Assembly (NCBI GenBank): GCA_025465535.1 | Contig: JAODMY010000070.1 | Span: 1 to 64,000, forward strand | Direction of reading: 5' to 3' | From: Glaciihabitans sp. | GTDB taxonomy: Bacteria; Actinomycetota; Actinomycetes; Actinomycetales; Microbacteriaceae | DNA length: 64,000 nucleotides | Shown: in pieces, positions 17,563 through 63,526 of the stretch | Numbering within the stretch: position 1 is the stretch's first letter | Layout of the letters: every line of letters starts with the position of its first letter | Notes under the pieces: model-generated | What the model was told of the DNA's origin: nothing | The model's database searches: none | What the model saw: only the letters and a program-made list of their open reading frames with translations | Position numbers and translations under genes: made by a program

Positions 17563-17643
17563 CCCATCCTCCTCGCGAGGCGCCCCATCGTCCTCGTGAA
17601 AGGCCCATCCTCCTCGGGAAGGGCCCATCCTCCTCGGGAAGGG
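17563..17643. repeat. Four-unit tandem repeat, period 20-21 bp, upstream of NUDIX gene
   Basis: cccatcctcctcgggaaggg-type units starting 17563, 17584, 17604, 17624. Confidence 0.88.
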
Positions 17644-17649
17644 CGAGGG

Positions 17650-22490: not shown

Positions 22491-22580
22491 CCGCGGTTCT
22501 CCTGCTGGCCGAGTAGGCGTCCGCGGTTCTCCTGCTGGCCGAGTAGGCGTCCGTGGTTCTCCTGCCAGTCGAGTAGGCGT
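22491..22580. repeat. Three-unit tandem repeat of exactly 30 bp
   Basis: ccgcggttctcctgctggccgagtaggcgt x2 (identical) plus one diverged copy. Confidence 0.95.
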
Positions 22581-22628
22581 CCGTGGCCGTATCGAGACCC
22601 ACTGTCGGCGATACGTCAGACCGCCCGT

Positions 22629-22726
22629 GTTCATAACTCCTCCTGGTTGTGTCCGCGGCGGGTGCGAAGTGGCGGATTGTCGCGGGTTGGTCGGCCCCGC
22701 TTCCTCAATTAGGAGGAGTTATGAAC
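22629..22726. repeat. Perfect 16-bp inverted repeat flanking a 66-bp segment
   Basis: gttcataactcctcct (22629-22644) / aggaggagttatgaac (22711-22726). Confidence 0.9.
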
Positions 22727-22842
22727 CGGCGCGGAGGCGTTATGACCCCGGCGCGGAGGAGTTATGACCCGGGCGTGGAGGAGTTATGACCCCGGAGCGG
22801 AGGCGTTATGGCCCGGGCGCGGAGGAGTTATGACGCATCGCG
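22712..22842 (+). repeat. Six-unit tandem array, 22-bp period, consensus GGAGGAGTTATGACCCCGGCGC
   Basis: units start 22712, 22733, 22755, 22777, 22799, 22821. Confidence 0.95.
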
Positions 22843-47922: not shown

Positions 47923-47976
47923 GGTCACGACGAGAGGCCGGGTCGCGACGAGAGGCCGGTTCGCGACGAGAGGATG
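47923..47976. repeat. Three-unit 18-bp tandem repeat
   Basis: ggtcacgacgagaggccg / ggtcgcgacgagaggccg / gttcgcgacgagaggatg. Confidence 0.9.
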
Positions 47977-48361: not shown

Positions 48362-50068
48362 TCAGCTCCGGCGAAGGATCACCGCGGAGTGCCCGGTCAG
48401 TGTCATCGATTCCCTGTGCACGACGGTCGCGGGATCGGTCGACAGCAGGGTCTCGCCACCGACCGCGAGGTCGACGGATGCCGCACCAAAGTTGGCGATA
48501 ATCGTCACGCCCCCGCGGTCCAGGCGGAACCACCGCGCGTCGTCGTCGAAGCTGGCTGCGAGGCGCGCGAACCGCGGATCACTGAGCTCGGGAATCGCGC
48601 GCCGGAGCCGCGCAAGCTCGCGATAGAGCTCAAGTAGCCGGGCGTGGTCGCCCTCGGTGCTCTCCTGCCAATTCAACCGGGAGCGGCGGAAGGTCTCCGT
48701 GTCCTGGGGGTCTGGGACGACATCCGGATCCCAGCCCATCCGCTCGAATTCGGCGATGCGGCCCTCGGCCGTGGCGCGGCCGAGATCCTCCTCCGGGTGA
48801 GAGGTGAAGAACTGCCACGGCGTCGTCGCGGCCCACTCCTCGCCCATGAACAGCATGGGTGTGAACGGACCGGCGAGCGTCAGCACCGCGGCGATCGTGA
48901 GCTGGCCGAAGTCGAGCGACTCGGTGAGTCGATCGCCGGTTGCGCGGTTGCCGATCTGGTCGTGATCCTGGGCGAACGTGACCAGCCGCCAGGTCGGGAC
49001 CTGGCGGTCGATCGGATGCCCGTGGTCACGACCGCGGAACGACGAGTGCGTTCCGTCGTGGAAGAAGCCCCTCGTGGAGGTCTTGGCGAGGGCGCCGAGG
49101 GAAGCGAAGTCCTCGTAGTAGCCGGTCGTCTCGCCGGTCAGCGCGACATGGAGGCTGTGGTGATAGTCGTCGCTCCACTGCGCGGCGAGGCCGTATCCGC
49201 CGGCCTCGCGGGGCATGATCAGCTTCGGATCGTTGAGATCTGACTCGGCGATGAGAGTGAGCGGGCGACCGAGGTGCGCGCTGAGAGCATCCGTCTCCTC
49301 AGCCAACTCGCGCAGGATGTGCGTGGGCGATTCGTCGACCAGCGCGTGCACGGCATCCAGCCGCAGGCCGTCGACGTGGTAGTCGCGCAGCCACATCTCG
49401 GCGTTGTCGAGGATGTAGCGGCGCACGGCTGGCTCCGCGAGGTTGACCGACGAGCCCCAGGTGTTGGCGCTGGCTTCGGTGAGGTACGGGCCGAAACGGG
49501 GAAGGTAGTTGCCGCTCGGGCCGAGGTGGTTGTAGACCACGTCCTGCAGCACGGCGAGGCCGCGCGCGTGGCAGGCATCCACGAATCGCTGGTAGGCCGC
49601 GGGGCCGCCGTACCCCTCGTGGACCGTGTACCAAAGCACGCCGTCGTAGCCCCAGTTGTGCGTTCCGTTGAAGCCGTTGACGGGCAGCAGCTCGATGAAA
49701 TCGACGCCGAGCCCGACGAGATGATCGAGCTTGCCGATCGCGGCATCGAGCGTGCCGTCGGGCGTGAAGGTGCCGATGTGCAGCTCGTAGACGATGCCCC
49801 CGGCGAGCTGGCGCCCTGTCCAGTCGGAGTCGGTCCACCGGAATGCCGTCGGGTCAAAGGCCCGGCTTGCCGCGTGCACGCCGGCGGGCTGTCGGCGGGA
49901 GCGCGGATCGGGAACGGGTTCGGCGCCATCCAGCACGATCGAGTAGTCGGTGCCCGCCGGGAGGTCGGGCGCACGCCAGTGGCCGTCGCCCGCTGGCTCA
50001 AGGGGGATATCGCCGTCGGCGGTGCGGATCGCGACCGTACTCGCGAGGGGTGCCCAGATTTCGATCAT
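48362..50068 (-). CDS. treZ: Malto-oligosyltrehalose trehalohydrolase
   Basis: [53 protein letters not shown]. Confidence 0.95.
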
Positions 50069-50113
50069 GCGGTCTCGATCATGCGGTCTCGATCATGCCG
50101 TGCCCGATCATGC
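50068..50113 (-). repeat. 14-bp tandem repeats (GCATGATCGAGACC) at treY/treZ junction
   Basis: minus strand ATGATCGGGCACGGC-ATGATCGAGACCGC-ATGATCGAGACCGC-ATGATCGAAATC. Confidence 0.95.
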
Positions 50114-52444
50114 GGGCACCAGCAGCGCGACGGGATATGCGGCCAACAGGTCGCCGAGCGCGAGCGGGCCACCGTCGAAGCGCCGATCGGAGATGACATC
50201 GACGAGTGGATGCCCCGGCAGCACGACCACCGTGTCGCCCCATCCGCCGCGCGCCTCGAGGCCGAGGGGCAAGCGGGTCCCGACGGCCACCGCGCCGCCT
50301 CGATCGAACGCGACGACGTGTCGTTCCGCGTCCCCGAGGGCCGGCAGCGGCGCATAGCGCGTGAACAGCTCTGGTCGATCGCGCCGAAGCCGAAGGGCTC
50401 GCGTCGTCACCAGCAGTTTCACCGCGCCGGATTCATCGATCGGCGGATGTGCGCCGGCATCCACAGCCGCGAGGTACAGGCGCCGGATGTCGAAGTCGAC
50501 CGTGCGGCGATTGTCCGGGTCGACGAGACTCGTCTCCCACAGCTCGCTGCCCTGGTACACATCCGGAACTCCGGGAGCCGTCAACTGGATCAGCTTGGCC
50601 GTCAGCGAGTTCGACCAGCCCGCCTGTGCGATTCGTTCGACGAAGCCGTCGATGATCGAAGCGACCTGTTGGTCGTCGAACACCGAGTCGACAAGGGCGT
50701 GCATCCGGGTCTCGAAGTCGTGATTCGGATCGGTCCAGTGGGTGGATGACCCGGCCTCGCGCGCCGCCTTCTCCGCGTAGTCGTGCAGCCGCTCGCGGGA
50801 TGCCGGCCAGGCTCCGACGATGGATTCCCAGAGCAGGTTCTCCAACTCGCCATCGTCGAGGGGCGCGAGTTCGCGGAGCTGCCCGAGGGTCTCCTCCCAC
50901 TGCTCGGGAATTTCGGCGAGAACGCTGATGCGCGCGCGGGTGTCCTCTCCACGCTTGGTGTCGTGGGTCGTCAGCGTGGTGAGTGAGGCCGGTGAGCTCG
51001 CCTGGCGGTCGAGCTGGCGCTGGTGGAACACATCCACCCCGATCGAGAACTCCGCGGGATCCGAGCCGACCTCGGTCAGCGACGACAGGCGGCTGTAGCG
51101 ATAGAACGCGGTGTCTTCGACGCCCTTGGCCATGACCATTCCCGAGGTCTGCTGGAAGCGCAGCGCGACCGGCTGGGCGGCATCGGCCAGCAGCGGCAGA
51201 AGCGCGTCGATGGTCGGAATCAGCTCCGGACGGTGTTGCCTGGCGAGCCGCGCGGCCTCGACCAGGTGCTCCTCGCCGACCGGCAGGTAGGAGCGGTAGA
51301 CCGGGAAGCAGGCGAGAAGTTCGGCGAGGGTGTCGGCGACGGCCCCCTCGACGAGTTCGTCGGGGAGGTCGGGGAGGTCGGGGAGCGAGAGGACTTCGCG
51401 CTCGAGTCGCAGCACCTCCGAACGCAGGATGCCGTCGGCGATCGAGCGTTTCGTCCCGTGGATGAGCGTGGCCCAGTCGATCGGCTGGGCGCGGCCGCGG
51501 AGGCGAGTGTCGAGCGCGTCCAGCGCCATCCGTCCTTCCGGATCCACGAGCACGCGGTCGAGGTCGCCGAGGGCGTCGTAACCGGTGGTCCCGGCGGTCG
51601 CCCAATAAGCGGGAAGCTTTTCATCGCCCTCGAGGATCTTCTCGACCCAGACCTCCGTTCCGCCCGTCGCGGTCGCCAGCGCGTCGAGGTAGCCGCCCGG
51701 GTCGCGAAGGCCATCCGGGTGATCGACACGGATCCCATCCGCGATGCCGTCCCTCACCCAGCGCACGATCTCGACGTGGCTCTCTTCGAACACCCACGGA
51801 ATCTCGACTCGGATGCCCGCGAGCGAGCTGACCCCGAAGAAGCGCCGGTAATTCAGTTCGGCGTCCTCGCGGCGCCAATTCACGAGCTCGTAGTGCTGGC
51901 GGCCGACGACGACGTCCGGTGTCGCGCCATCGTCCGCGCTGCCCGGCGCGAGCGGATACCGGTTGTTGAAGTAGTGCAGTTCGTCGCCGACGATGCTCAG
52001 TTCGTCCGCTTCGAGGGCCTCCTCGATGGAACCGCCCAGCACCGGAATCCGCAGTTTGCCGGCGCCGAACTCCCAGTCGATGTCGAACGCCTCCGCGTAG
52101 CGAGAGTCCTGGCCGTTGGCGAGCACATCCCACCACCACGAATTCTCCTGCGGAAGCGCAACCCCCATGTGATTGGGCACGATGTCGAGCAGGATGCCCA
52201 TGCCGCGCCCGTGCGCGGCGGCCGACATCCGATCGAGGGCTTCGCGCCCACCGCGGGCAGGGTCCACGAGGGAATGGTCGACGACGTCATAGCCGTGATC
52301 GGATCCGGTGGTCGCCCGCAGCAGCGGCGAGAGGTAGACCCAGTCCACGCCGAGGTCGTGGAGGTAGCCCGTGATGTCGACCGCGGCATCGAGCGGAAAC
52401 TGCTTGCGAATCTGCAGGCGATAGGTCGAGCTCGGGACGGCCAT
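50108..52444 (-). CDS. treY: Malto-oligosyltrehalose synthase
   Basis: STYRLQIRKQFPLDAAVDITGYLHDLGVDWVYLSPLL; GILLDIVPNHMGV. Confidence 0.95.
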   Translation of the reverse strand: MAVPSSTYRLQIRKQFPLDAAVDITGYLHDLGVDWVYLSPLLRATTGSDHGYDVVDHSLVDPARGGREALDRMSAAAHGRGMGILLDIVPNHMGVALPQENSWWWDVLANGQDSRYAEAFDIDWEFGAGKLRIPVLGGSIEEALEADELSIVGDELHYFNNRYPLAPGSADDGATPDVVVGRQHYELVNWRREDAELNYRRFFGVSSLAGIRVEIPWVFEESHVEIVRWVRDGIADGIRVDHPDGLRDPGGYLDALATATGGTEVWVEKILEGDEKLPAYWATAGTTGYDALGDLDRVLVDPEGRMALDALDTRLRGRAQPIDWATLIHGTKRSIADGILRSEVLRLEREVLSLPDLPDLPDELVEGAVADTLAELLACFPVYRSYLPVGEEHLVEAARLARQHRPELIPTIDALLPLLADAAQPVALRFQQTSGMVMAKGVEDTAFYRYSRLSSLTEVGSDPAEFSIGVDVFHQRQLDRQASSPASLTTLTTHDTKRGEDTRARISVLAEIPEQWEETLGQLRELAPLDDGELENLLWESIVGAWPASRERLHDYAEKAAREAGSSTHWTDPNHDFETRMHALVDSVFDDQQVASIIDGFVERIAQAGWSNSLTAKLIQLTAPGVPDVYQGSELWETSLVDPDNRRTVDFDIRRLYLAAVDAGAHPPIDESGAVKLLVTTRALRLRRDRPELFTRYAPLPALGDAERHVVAFDRGGAVAVGTRLPLGLEARGGWGDTVVVLPGHPLVDVISDRRFDGGPLALGDLLAAYPVALLVPA

Positions 52445-52446
52445 CC

Positions 52447-54696
52447 CTAAGCTCGCGGCGGATCGGTCGTGGGCGCCGTGGCCGGGATGGTCTCGACGGG
52501 AGGTGCCGGCGCCTCGGCGACGCTCGGGACGATGAGCGGCACGGGGGCGGACAGCGACGCGGCGACGGAGTGATCCGCCTCGGCCTCGGCTGGCGTGTGC
52601 GCGCGCAACACCATGAGCGACTTGCCCTCGACCGGGATGGCGGCCCCGGCCTCCCGGGGCGCCGAATCCGCGCTCGCACCGGCCGTGTCGACGACGATCT
52701 CCCAGATCGACGAATACTCCTCCGGCGGGAGGGTGAAGTCGATCGGATCGTCGCCCGCATTGAACAGGATGAGGAAGTTGAGGTCGGTGATGCGCTCGCC
52801 GCGGGCGTCGCGCCCGTGGATGCCCTCCCCGTTCAGGAAGACCGCGATCGAGCGCCCGAAGCCGGAATCCCAGTCGCCCGGCGCCATGACGGCGCCATCC
52901 GGCTGCAGCCAGACGATGTCGGGCAGCGGCTCGCCCTCGCCTCGAACGGCCGGCCGGCCGTCGAAGAATCGCGATCGCCGGAACGTCGGATGCTCCTTCC
53001 GCAGTCGCGCAAGTGCTGAGGTGAAGTCGATGAGCGGCTGGTCGGCCGTATCCCAGTGCACCCACGAAAGCGGCGAATCCTGGGCGTACGTGTTGTTGTT
53101 GCCCTCCTGCGTGCGCCCGAGTTCGTCGCCGTGCAGCACCATCGGCACACCCTGCGAGAGCAGGAGGGTGGCGAGAAAATTGCGCTGCTGTCGGGCGCGC
53201 AGCGCAACAATTTTCGGATCAGCGCTCGGGCCCTCGACACCACCGTTGTACGAGCGGTTGTCGTCCGCGCCGTCCTTATTGTTCTCGCCGTTGGCTGTGT
53301 TGTGTTTGTAGTTGTAGGAGACGAGGTCGCGCAGTGTGAACCCATCGTGCGCCGTGACGAAGTTGATCGAGGCGACCGGGCGTCGACCGTCGTGTTCGTA
53401 CAGGTCGGATGAGCCGGTCAGCCGCTCGGCGAACTCGCCGAGCGTGGATGGCTCGCCCCGCCAGAAGTCGCGAACGGTGTCGCGGTACTTGCCGTTCCAC
53501 TCCGTCCACTGCGGGGGAAAATTGCCGACCTGGTATCCGCCGGGGCCGACATCCCACGGCTCGGCGATGAGCTTGACCTGGGAGACGATCGGGTCCTGCT
53601 GGACGAGTTCGAAGAAGGCGGAGAGCTTGTCGACGTCGTAGAACTCTCGAGCGAGCGCGGCGGCAAGATCGAAGCGGAACCCGTCGACGTGCATCTCGAT
53701 CACCCAGTAGCGCAGGCTGTCCATGATGAGCTGCAACGAGTGCGGATTACCGGCGTTGAAGGAGTTTCCGGTGCCGGTGTAGTCCATGTAGTACTCGGGT
53801 GTTTTGTCGACCAGCCGGTAGTAGGCCGCATTGTCGATGCCCTTGAACGAGATGGTCGGGCCGAGGTGATTGCCCTCTGCCGTGTGGTTGTAGACGACGT
53901 CGAGAATGACCTCGATACCGGCGGCGTGCATGGCCCGCACCACACCCTTGAACTCCTGGACCTGCTGGCCGACATCGCCCGTCGACGCATAGGAATTGTG
54001 CGGCGCGAAGAAGCCGATGGTGTTGTAACCCCAGTAGTTCGACAGGCCCTTCTCTTCGAGCGTCGAGTCGTTGACGAACTGGTGAACAGGCATGAGCTCG
54101 ATGGCCGTGACGCCGAGCTTCACCAGGTGCTCGATGAGCGCCGGATGCGCGAGCGCCGCATAGGTGCCGCGGATCTCCTCCGGGATTCCGGGGTGCAGTG
54201 CGGTGAGCCCCTTCACGTGCGCCTCGTATATGACGCTGTCGGCATACGGGGTTTTTGGCGCTCGATCCCCGGCCCAGTCGAAGAATGGATTGATGACGAC
54301 GCCGTGCATCATGTGCTGGGCGGAGTCGTCGTTGTTCTCCGACTCCGGATCCCCGAAGTTGTAGGCGTAGAGGGACTGGTCCCACGTGATCTCCCCCCAG
54401 GTTGCCTTCGCATAGGGATCGAGCAACAGCTTCGACGGATTGAATCGGAGCCCCGACTTCGGATCGTACGGGCCGTACACGCGGTATCCGTAGCGCTGGC
54501 CGGGCTGAACATGGGGGAGGTAGGCGTGCCAGACGTAGGCATCCACCTCGGTGAATTCGACTCGCGTCTCAGTGAGGTCGGAATCGAAAAGGCAGAGCTC
54601 GACCTTCTCCGCTGCTTCGCTGTAGAGAGCGAAGTTGGTGCCGTTGCCGTCGAACGTGGCTCCGAGCGGGTATGCCGTTCCTGGCCAGGTTTTCAT
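52447..54696 (-). CDS. glgX: Glycogen debranching enzyme
   Basis: GLTALHPGIPEEIRGTYAALAHPALIEHL; SNYWGYNTIGFFAPH; glgX/treX family in a tre operon. Confidence 0.95.
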   Translation of the reverse strand: MKTWPGTAYPLGATFDGNGTNFALYSEAAEKVELCLFDSDLTETRVEFTEVDAYVWHAYLPHVQPGQRYGYRVYGPYDPKSGLRFNPSKLLLDPYAKATWGEITWDQSLYAYNFGDPESENNDDSAQHMMHGVVINPFFDWAGDRAPKTPYADSVIYEAHVKGLTALHPGIPEEIRGTYAALAHPALIEHLVKLGVTAIELMPVHQFVNDSTLEEKGLSNYWGYNTIGFFAPHNSYASTGDVGQQVQEFKGVVRAMHAAGIEVILDVVYNHTAEGNHLGPTISFKGIDNAAYYRLVDKTPEYYMDYTGTGNSFNAGNPHSLQLIMDSLRYWVIEMHVDGFRFDLAAALAREFYDVDKLSAFFELVQQDPIVSQVKLIAEPWDVGPGGYQVGNFPPQWTEWNGKYRDTVRDFWRGEPSTLGEFAERLTGSSDLYEHDGRRPVASINFVTAHDGFTLRDLVSYNYKHNTANGENNKDGADDNRSYNGGVEGPSADPKIVALRARQQRNFLATLLLSQGVPMVLHGDELGRTQEGNNNTYAQDSPLSWVHWDTADQPLIDFTSALARLRKEHPTFRRSRFFDGRPAVRGEGEPLPDIVWLQPDGAVMAPGDWDSGFGRSIAVFLNGEGIHGRDARGERITDLNFLILFNAGDDPIDFTLPPEEYSSIWEIVVDTAGASADSAPREAGAAIPVEGKSLMVLRAHTPAEAEADHSVAASLSAPVPLIVPSVAEAPAPPVETIPATAPTTDPPRA

Positions 54697-54753
54697 CGGG
54701 TCCTTTCGTTGGTGCATTTCCACAGTAGCCAATGGGCGTGCCTACACTGCGGT

Positions 54754-63467: not shown

Positions 63468-63526
63468 CTGTCTATAGGATGAGTTTTGCTAACATTCTGT
63501 CTGTAGAATGAGTTTTGCTAAACATT
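63468..63526. repeat. Tandem direct repeat, 29/30 bp, between divergent genes
   Basis: ctgtctataggatgagttttgctaacatt / ctgtctgtagaatgagttttgctaaacatt. Confidence 0.95.

Follow-up and report, generated by a model that had tools for sequence, protein, structure and literature searches.

The window, by which we mean the whole stretch of 64,000 nucleotides of Glaciihabitans sp. DNA that was analysed, contains on its minus strand an operon in which glgX, treY and treZ follow one another. The profile matches listed below firmly identify the three encoded proteins. The features of the operon and of the treY-treZ junction are as follows.

52447..54732, minus strand: glgX, next gene upstream of treY in the same operon (TIGR02100, 996 bits)
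50108..52444, minus strand: treY, malto-oligosyltrehalose synthase (TIGR02401, 843 bits), start ATG 52444, stop TGA 50110-50108
48362..50068, minus strand: treZ, malto-oligosyltrehalose trehalohydrolase (TIGR02402, 728 bits), start ATG 50068
50099..50113, minus strand: unit 1, a diverged 15-nt copy, GCATGATCGGGCACG, containing the treY stop and ATG 50111
50085..50098, minus strand: unit 2, GCATGATCGAGACC, containing ATG 50096 in frame with ATG 50111
50071..50084, minus strand: unit 3, GCATGATCGAGACC, containing ATG 50082
50057..50070, minus strand: unit 4, GCATGATCGAAATC, containing the treZ start
50079..50111, minus strand: mini-ORF 1, 10 protein letters, whose start overlaps the treY stop and whose stop overlaps ATG 50082
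50065..50082, minus strand: mini-ORF 2, MIETA*, whose stop overlaps the treZ ATG 50068
50096..50124, minus strand: predicted RNA hairpin, TGCTGGTGCCCG-CATGAT-CGGGCACGGCA, -17.1 kcal/mol, z of -3.0 against shuffles, noticed after the fact

Read along the minus strand, treY ends with GTG CCC GCA TGA and the array runs in the order GCATGATCGGGCACG, GCATGATCGAGACC, GCATGATCGAGACC, GCATGATCGAAATC. Four ATGA stop/start overlaps, with their ATGs at 50111, 50096, 50082 and 50068, succeed one another at spacings of 15, 14 and 14 nt. The start codon that overlaps the treY TGA (50110-50108) is the ATG at 50111; it opens a mini-ORF and is not the start of treZ, which lies 42 nt past the treY stop. The ATGs at 50111 and 50096, 15 nt apart, share a frame and both lead to the TGA that overlaps ATG 50082, from which MIETA is read up to a TGA overlapping ATG 50068. 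This last ATG is unambiguously the treZ start, because, going upstream from it, the treZ frame runs into a stop codon before a further start codon is reached. Our re-reading of the minus strand reproduced the coordinates, peptides and spacings that the first-pass annotation had given for this relay. Its description of the repeat as consisting of 14-bp units holds for units 2 and 3, the only exact copies of GCATGATCGAGACC, but not for the diverged 15-nt unit 1; the last unit is the treZ start itself, with 12 of 14 bases matching. The relay geometry of that annotation is supported as well, and so is the rule that a unit length of 2 mod 3 preserves the ATGA handover: as 14 is 2 mod 3 and the ATG frame of the unit has no stop, each added copy constitutes a mini-ORF that overlaps both the preceding stop and the next start.

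The array reached a score of 87 in Tandem Repeats Finder, against a maximum of 69 among 20 dinucleotide shuffles of the window, and since no shuffled window attained its score it is not a product of chance. A search of its own genome located the array at one site only and detected no dispersed family of the junction unit; the sole other notable match was a 24-base stretch within an apparent glutamine synthetase coding sequence (gene named by eye). Given that this genome is fragmented in 152 contigs, the repeat might have been created by an assembly error. We consider this extremely unlikely, as the array spans about 55 nt, which is below the length of one sequencing read, and the same architecture was found in a sister sequence and in several Microbacterium genomes that look finished, having a contig of >4 Mb (e.g. 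G645 and G477).

Other tandem repeats were observed in the window. A 20-bp repeat in four copies (17563-17644) and an 18-bp repeat in 2.8 copies (47923-47973) are both apparently intergenic, and an AT-rich 29-bp direct repeat, CTGTCTATAGAATGAGTTTTGCTAAACATT, is located at 63468-63526, the remaining window being GC-rich.

The predicted hairpin is strong, the -17.1 kcal/mol applying to its extended fold. It has a perfect 7-bp stem and a loop that holds ATG 50111 and the treY stop, and its GGTGCCC arm can alternatively bind the WAP codons of treZ. In L011, a locus of the same genus, the treY stop is covered by another 7-bp hairpin, GCGATGA-GGC-TCATCGC, and among the other junctions there was no general trend towards a hairpin over this stop. 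When units were removed in the folding, the accessibility of the treZ start was little altered (0.37 to 0.44). An Rfam scan of the window yielded one tRNA as its sole match and thus no known RNA element at the junction.

For comparison, treY-treZ loci were drawn from the genus, the family, a named genome collection, the genus Microbacterium and further stretches, which gave 194 distinct junctions. Repeat number had been proposed as the character to compare across relatives. Unit steps recur in the sister locus L011 and in Microbacterium; 129 of the 194 junctions show a plain overlap of the NTGA or TGATG type. In a further 44 no start codon overlaps the treY stop, and in three such a start is present and leads nowhere. 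The remaining 18 were scored as mini-ORF relays, of which about 14 are good and 17 at most may be genuine; the good count excludes L259, whose start is mis-set, as well as L079, L133 and L218, which may be due to chance. The plain stop/start overlap is probably the ancestral state of the junction.

Within the genus, L011 adjoins the window on the tree and enters treZ through a single 14-nt step (ATG AGG CTC ATC GCA TGA); the overlap is direct in L013 and L012. L010 lacks a relay and has a Shine-Dalgarno sequence and a gap of 27 nt. In one Microbacterium subclade the treZ start takes one of three positions relative to the treY stop, -1, +16 or +33, which amount to a 17-nt unit present 0, 1 or 2 times, and L153, L163 and L160 align accordingly as 0, 1 and 2 copies. 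On the tree, the number of units in this genus underwent no fewer than six changes. The two genomes that bear the label M. oxydans (L101 and L110), whose TreZ proteins are 93% identical, carry longer arrays with 17-nt repeats that differ from each other and that are both still chained to treZ. The earlier suggestion that the junction is prone to changes in repeat number is therefore borne out by the Microbacterium species and by the two M. oxydans arrays.

Seven significant tandem repeats lay at the junction or spanned it, with periods of 14, 17, 17, 17, 15, 15 and 18, none of which is 1 mod 3; those of 15 and 18, found elsewhere, extend treZ in frame or adjoin the junction. Periods of 1 mod 3 would disrupt the link; that none occurred is suggestive only, as seven out of seven would arise with a chance of about 0.06 and the sample is small. 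At the L189 (G470) junction we observed 18-bp tandem copies containing GCGGTGATG, in frame, which provide several alternative GTGATG starts for treZ and form no relay. Altogether, the repeated stop/start relay at treY-treZ is a real and recurrent architecture, and the similar steps found in relatives at the same spot suggest that duplications keeping the link are tolerated there.

Assuming a typical 16S tail, the treZ start of the window pairs with the anti-Shine-Dalgarno sequence at -3.0 kcal/mol; the medians were -2.4 for internal ATG/GTG codons and -8.2 for direct overlaps. This near-lack of a Shine-Dalgarno sequence fits a dependence of treZ on coupling. In reporter experiments hardly any reinitiation is left at spacings of 20-40 nt (PMC10666635), so a gap of 42 nt that lacks a Shine-Dalgarno sequence should lower TreZ unless it is bridged. 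Of 19 spaced treY-treZ junctions in which a start overlaps the treY stop, 17 connect to treZ, compared with 7.6 expected by shuffling. Because relatives are not independent, these may represent 8-10 origins, against 2, and three of the connecting junctions (L079, L133 and L218) are doubtful. Our data suggest that ribosomes likely use the mini-ORFs.

Many of the +16 steps of Microbacterium also carry a good Shine-Dalgarno sequence, with strong pairing in L149 (-11.2), L164 (-10.2) and L158 (-9.7). The inserted 14-17 nt might then have served to supply or reposition the Shine-Dalgarno sequence of treZ, the mini-ORF being incidental, and a TGA followed by GGAG indeed fits the +13/+16 spacing, at CTGA junctions likewise. 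As a general account this is very unlikely, since it misfits the window (-3.0) and is a poor fit for L011 (-4.9) and L163 (-4.4).

A first shuffle test, in which 20 of 46 junctions were connected against 9.7 expected, suggested genome-wide selection for relays, and the first background set contained 28 other relays at unrelated junctions. A larger comparison covered 861 pairs of neighbouring genes, taken from six Microbacteriaceae genomes (about 2.05 million bases), with genes called by a simple script. On this basis genome-wide selection for relays was rejected: with gaps of 4-60 nt and in-frame cases excluded, virtual single-step relays occurred at 12 of 41 NTGA junctions and at 23 of 98 CTGA junctions, a control that has no start on the stop. 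Being nearly as frequent at a TGA that lacks a start, these relays give no sign of general selection. Downstream of TGA-stopped genes with gaps of 4-60 nt, CTGA included, the next start was in phase 1 mod 3 above an even spread, an excess that is probably set by the TGA-GGAG layout of the Shine-Dalgarno sequence.

The window itself holds a second array of this appearance. At 22712-22834 on the plus strand, six near-copies of GGAGGAGTTATGACCCCGGCGC, each with a strong Shine-Dalgarno sequence and ATG(A), form a 22-nt array in which some ATGs chain by ATGA (22721 or 22742 to 22786 to 22830). It sits between convergent genes with no gene directly downstream on that strand; as these ATGs chain and yet lead to no gene, a relay-like chain can arise without a target for the handover. 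The motif recurs in inverted form, TCATAACTCC, at 22631, a 30-bp repeat in three copies (22491-22583) adjoins the array directly after a gene end, and GGAGTTATGA was absent from the approximately 2 million bases sampled from the rest of the own genome and five related genomes.

These observations bear on an alternative in which the treY-treZ duplications are tolerated and the mini-ORFs remain unused, treZ being reached by short-range scanning, by rebinding of the 30S subunit or by independent initiation at the last ATG. Any ATGA tandem repeat whose period is 2 mod 3 would then look like a relay. The 28 relays at unrelated junctions, the 22-nt array that chains with no gene behind it and the similar spacing phase of NTGA and CTGA junctions, together with the lack of general selection for relays, all agree with such a by-product, as do some synthetic constructs in which coupling is good up to +25 nt and weak far beyond (review PMC12548453). 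However, the treZ start of the window is almost devoid of a Shine-Dalgarno sequence, the unit changes at the treY-treZ junction are recurrent and keep the phase, and nearly all of its spaced junctions connect. We therefore regard unused mini-ORFs as a possible but rather doubtful explanation.

The explanation that we favour, with somewhat better than even confidence, is a tandem duplication that preserves coupling through serial termination-reinitiation and that has been kept mainly through its low harm. At the outset treY and treZ would have shared a plain ATGA overlap of 4 nt. This overlap would then have been multiplied when some 14 nt surrounding it were duplicated in tandem, probably by replication slippage. 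Serial termination-reinitiation would maintain the coupling of treZ to treY despite their separation by 42 nt, and the duplications may have been retained mainly because they are nearly harmless.

A regulatory role had also been proposed for the repeats, namely that slippage tunes the TreZ:TreY stoichiometry. If repeat number set this ratio, each reinitiation would cut TreZ by a fixed factor and slippage would generate heritable variation. Each reinitiation is expected to fall below full efficiency, and the unit number does vary among close relatives; however, most of the family lacks the repeats and no trait tracking unit number was found. Tuning of TreZ:TreY by repeat number is thus unsupported, and we judge it quite unlikely. 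Also unlikely, to a slightly lesser degree, is the wider proposal that step lengths are held to 2 mod 3 (relay) or 0 mod 3 (in-frame extension) and that the number of mini-ORFs acts as a discrete, slippage-adjustable attenuator setting TreZ against TreY.

If ribosomes do traverse the mini-ORFs, an operon junction can gain DNA and yet keep its translational coupling, and the arithmetic rule of a unit of 2 mod 3 would predict which duplications survive. The Microbacterium junctions with 0, 1 and 2 units represent a natural series for the cost of one reinitiation step. The same series bears on the effect of stop-to-start distance, for which published reporter studies conflict (PMC10666635; PMC12548453).

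Our search of the open-access literature, whose coverage is incomplete, found no report of such repeats at treY-treZ. Among known systems, gene pairs coupled through NTGA overlaps by termination-reinitiation belong to the same class as the treY stop and treZ start of most relatives, with an ATGA at each handover; the junction described here differs from them in that the overlap is repeated and one or more mini-ORFs lie between the genes. Very short ORFs of the axe-txe minigene type (PMC8708949) resemble the mini-ORFs in that an ORF located just upstream may raise translation in cis, but, unlike treY-treZ, they show neither serial stop/start overlaps nor tandem repetition. The MIRUs of Mycobacterium tuberculosis are tandem repeats between senX3 and regX3 (Supply et al. 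1997, via PMC12548453); the ORF within the unit is coupled by a -4 nt spacing and the make-up of the units varies among strains (PMC12548453; copy number in PMC4213456). The published lengths of the MIRU units, 77 and 53, likewise give 2 mod 3 by our own arithmetic. Like MIRUs, the treY-treZ units stand in tandem between operon genes and contain ORFs that overlap their neighbours by ATGA; MIRUs, however, are longer, dispersed and apparently mobile, whereas the 14-nt unit is local and undispersed. In principle the treY-treZ repeat resembles this system, but it is not a MIRU: it is a short, undispersed copy of the junction itself.
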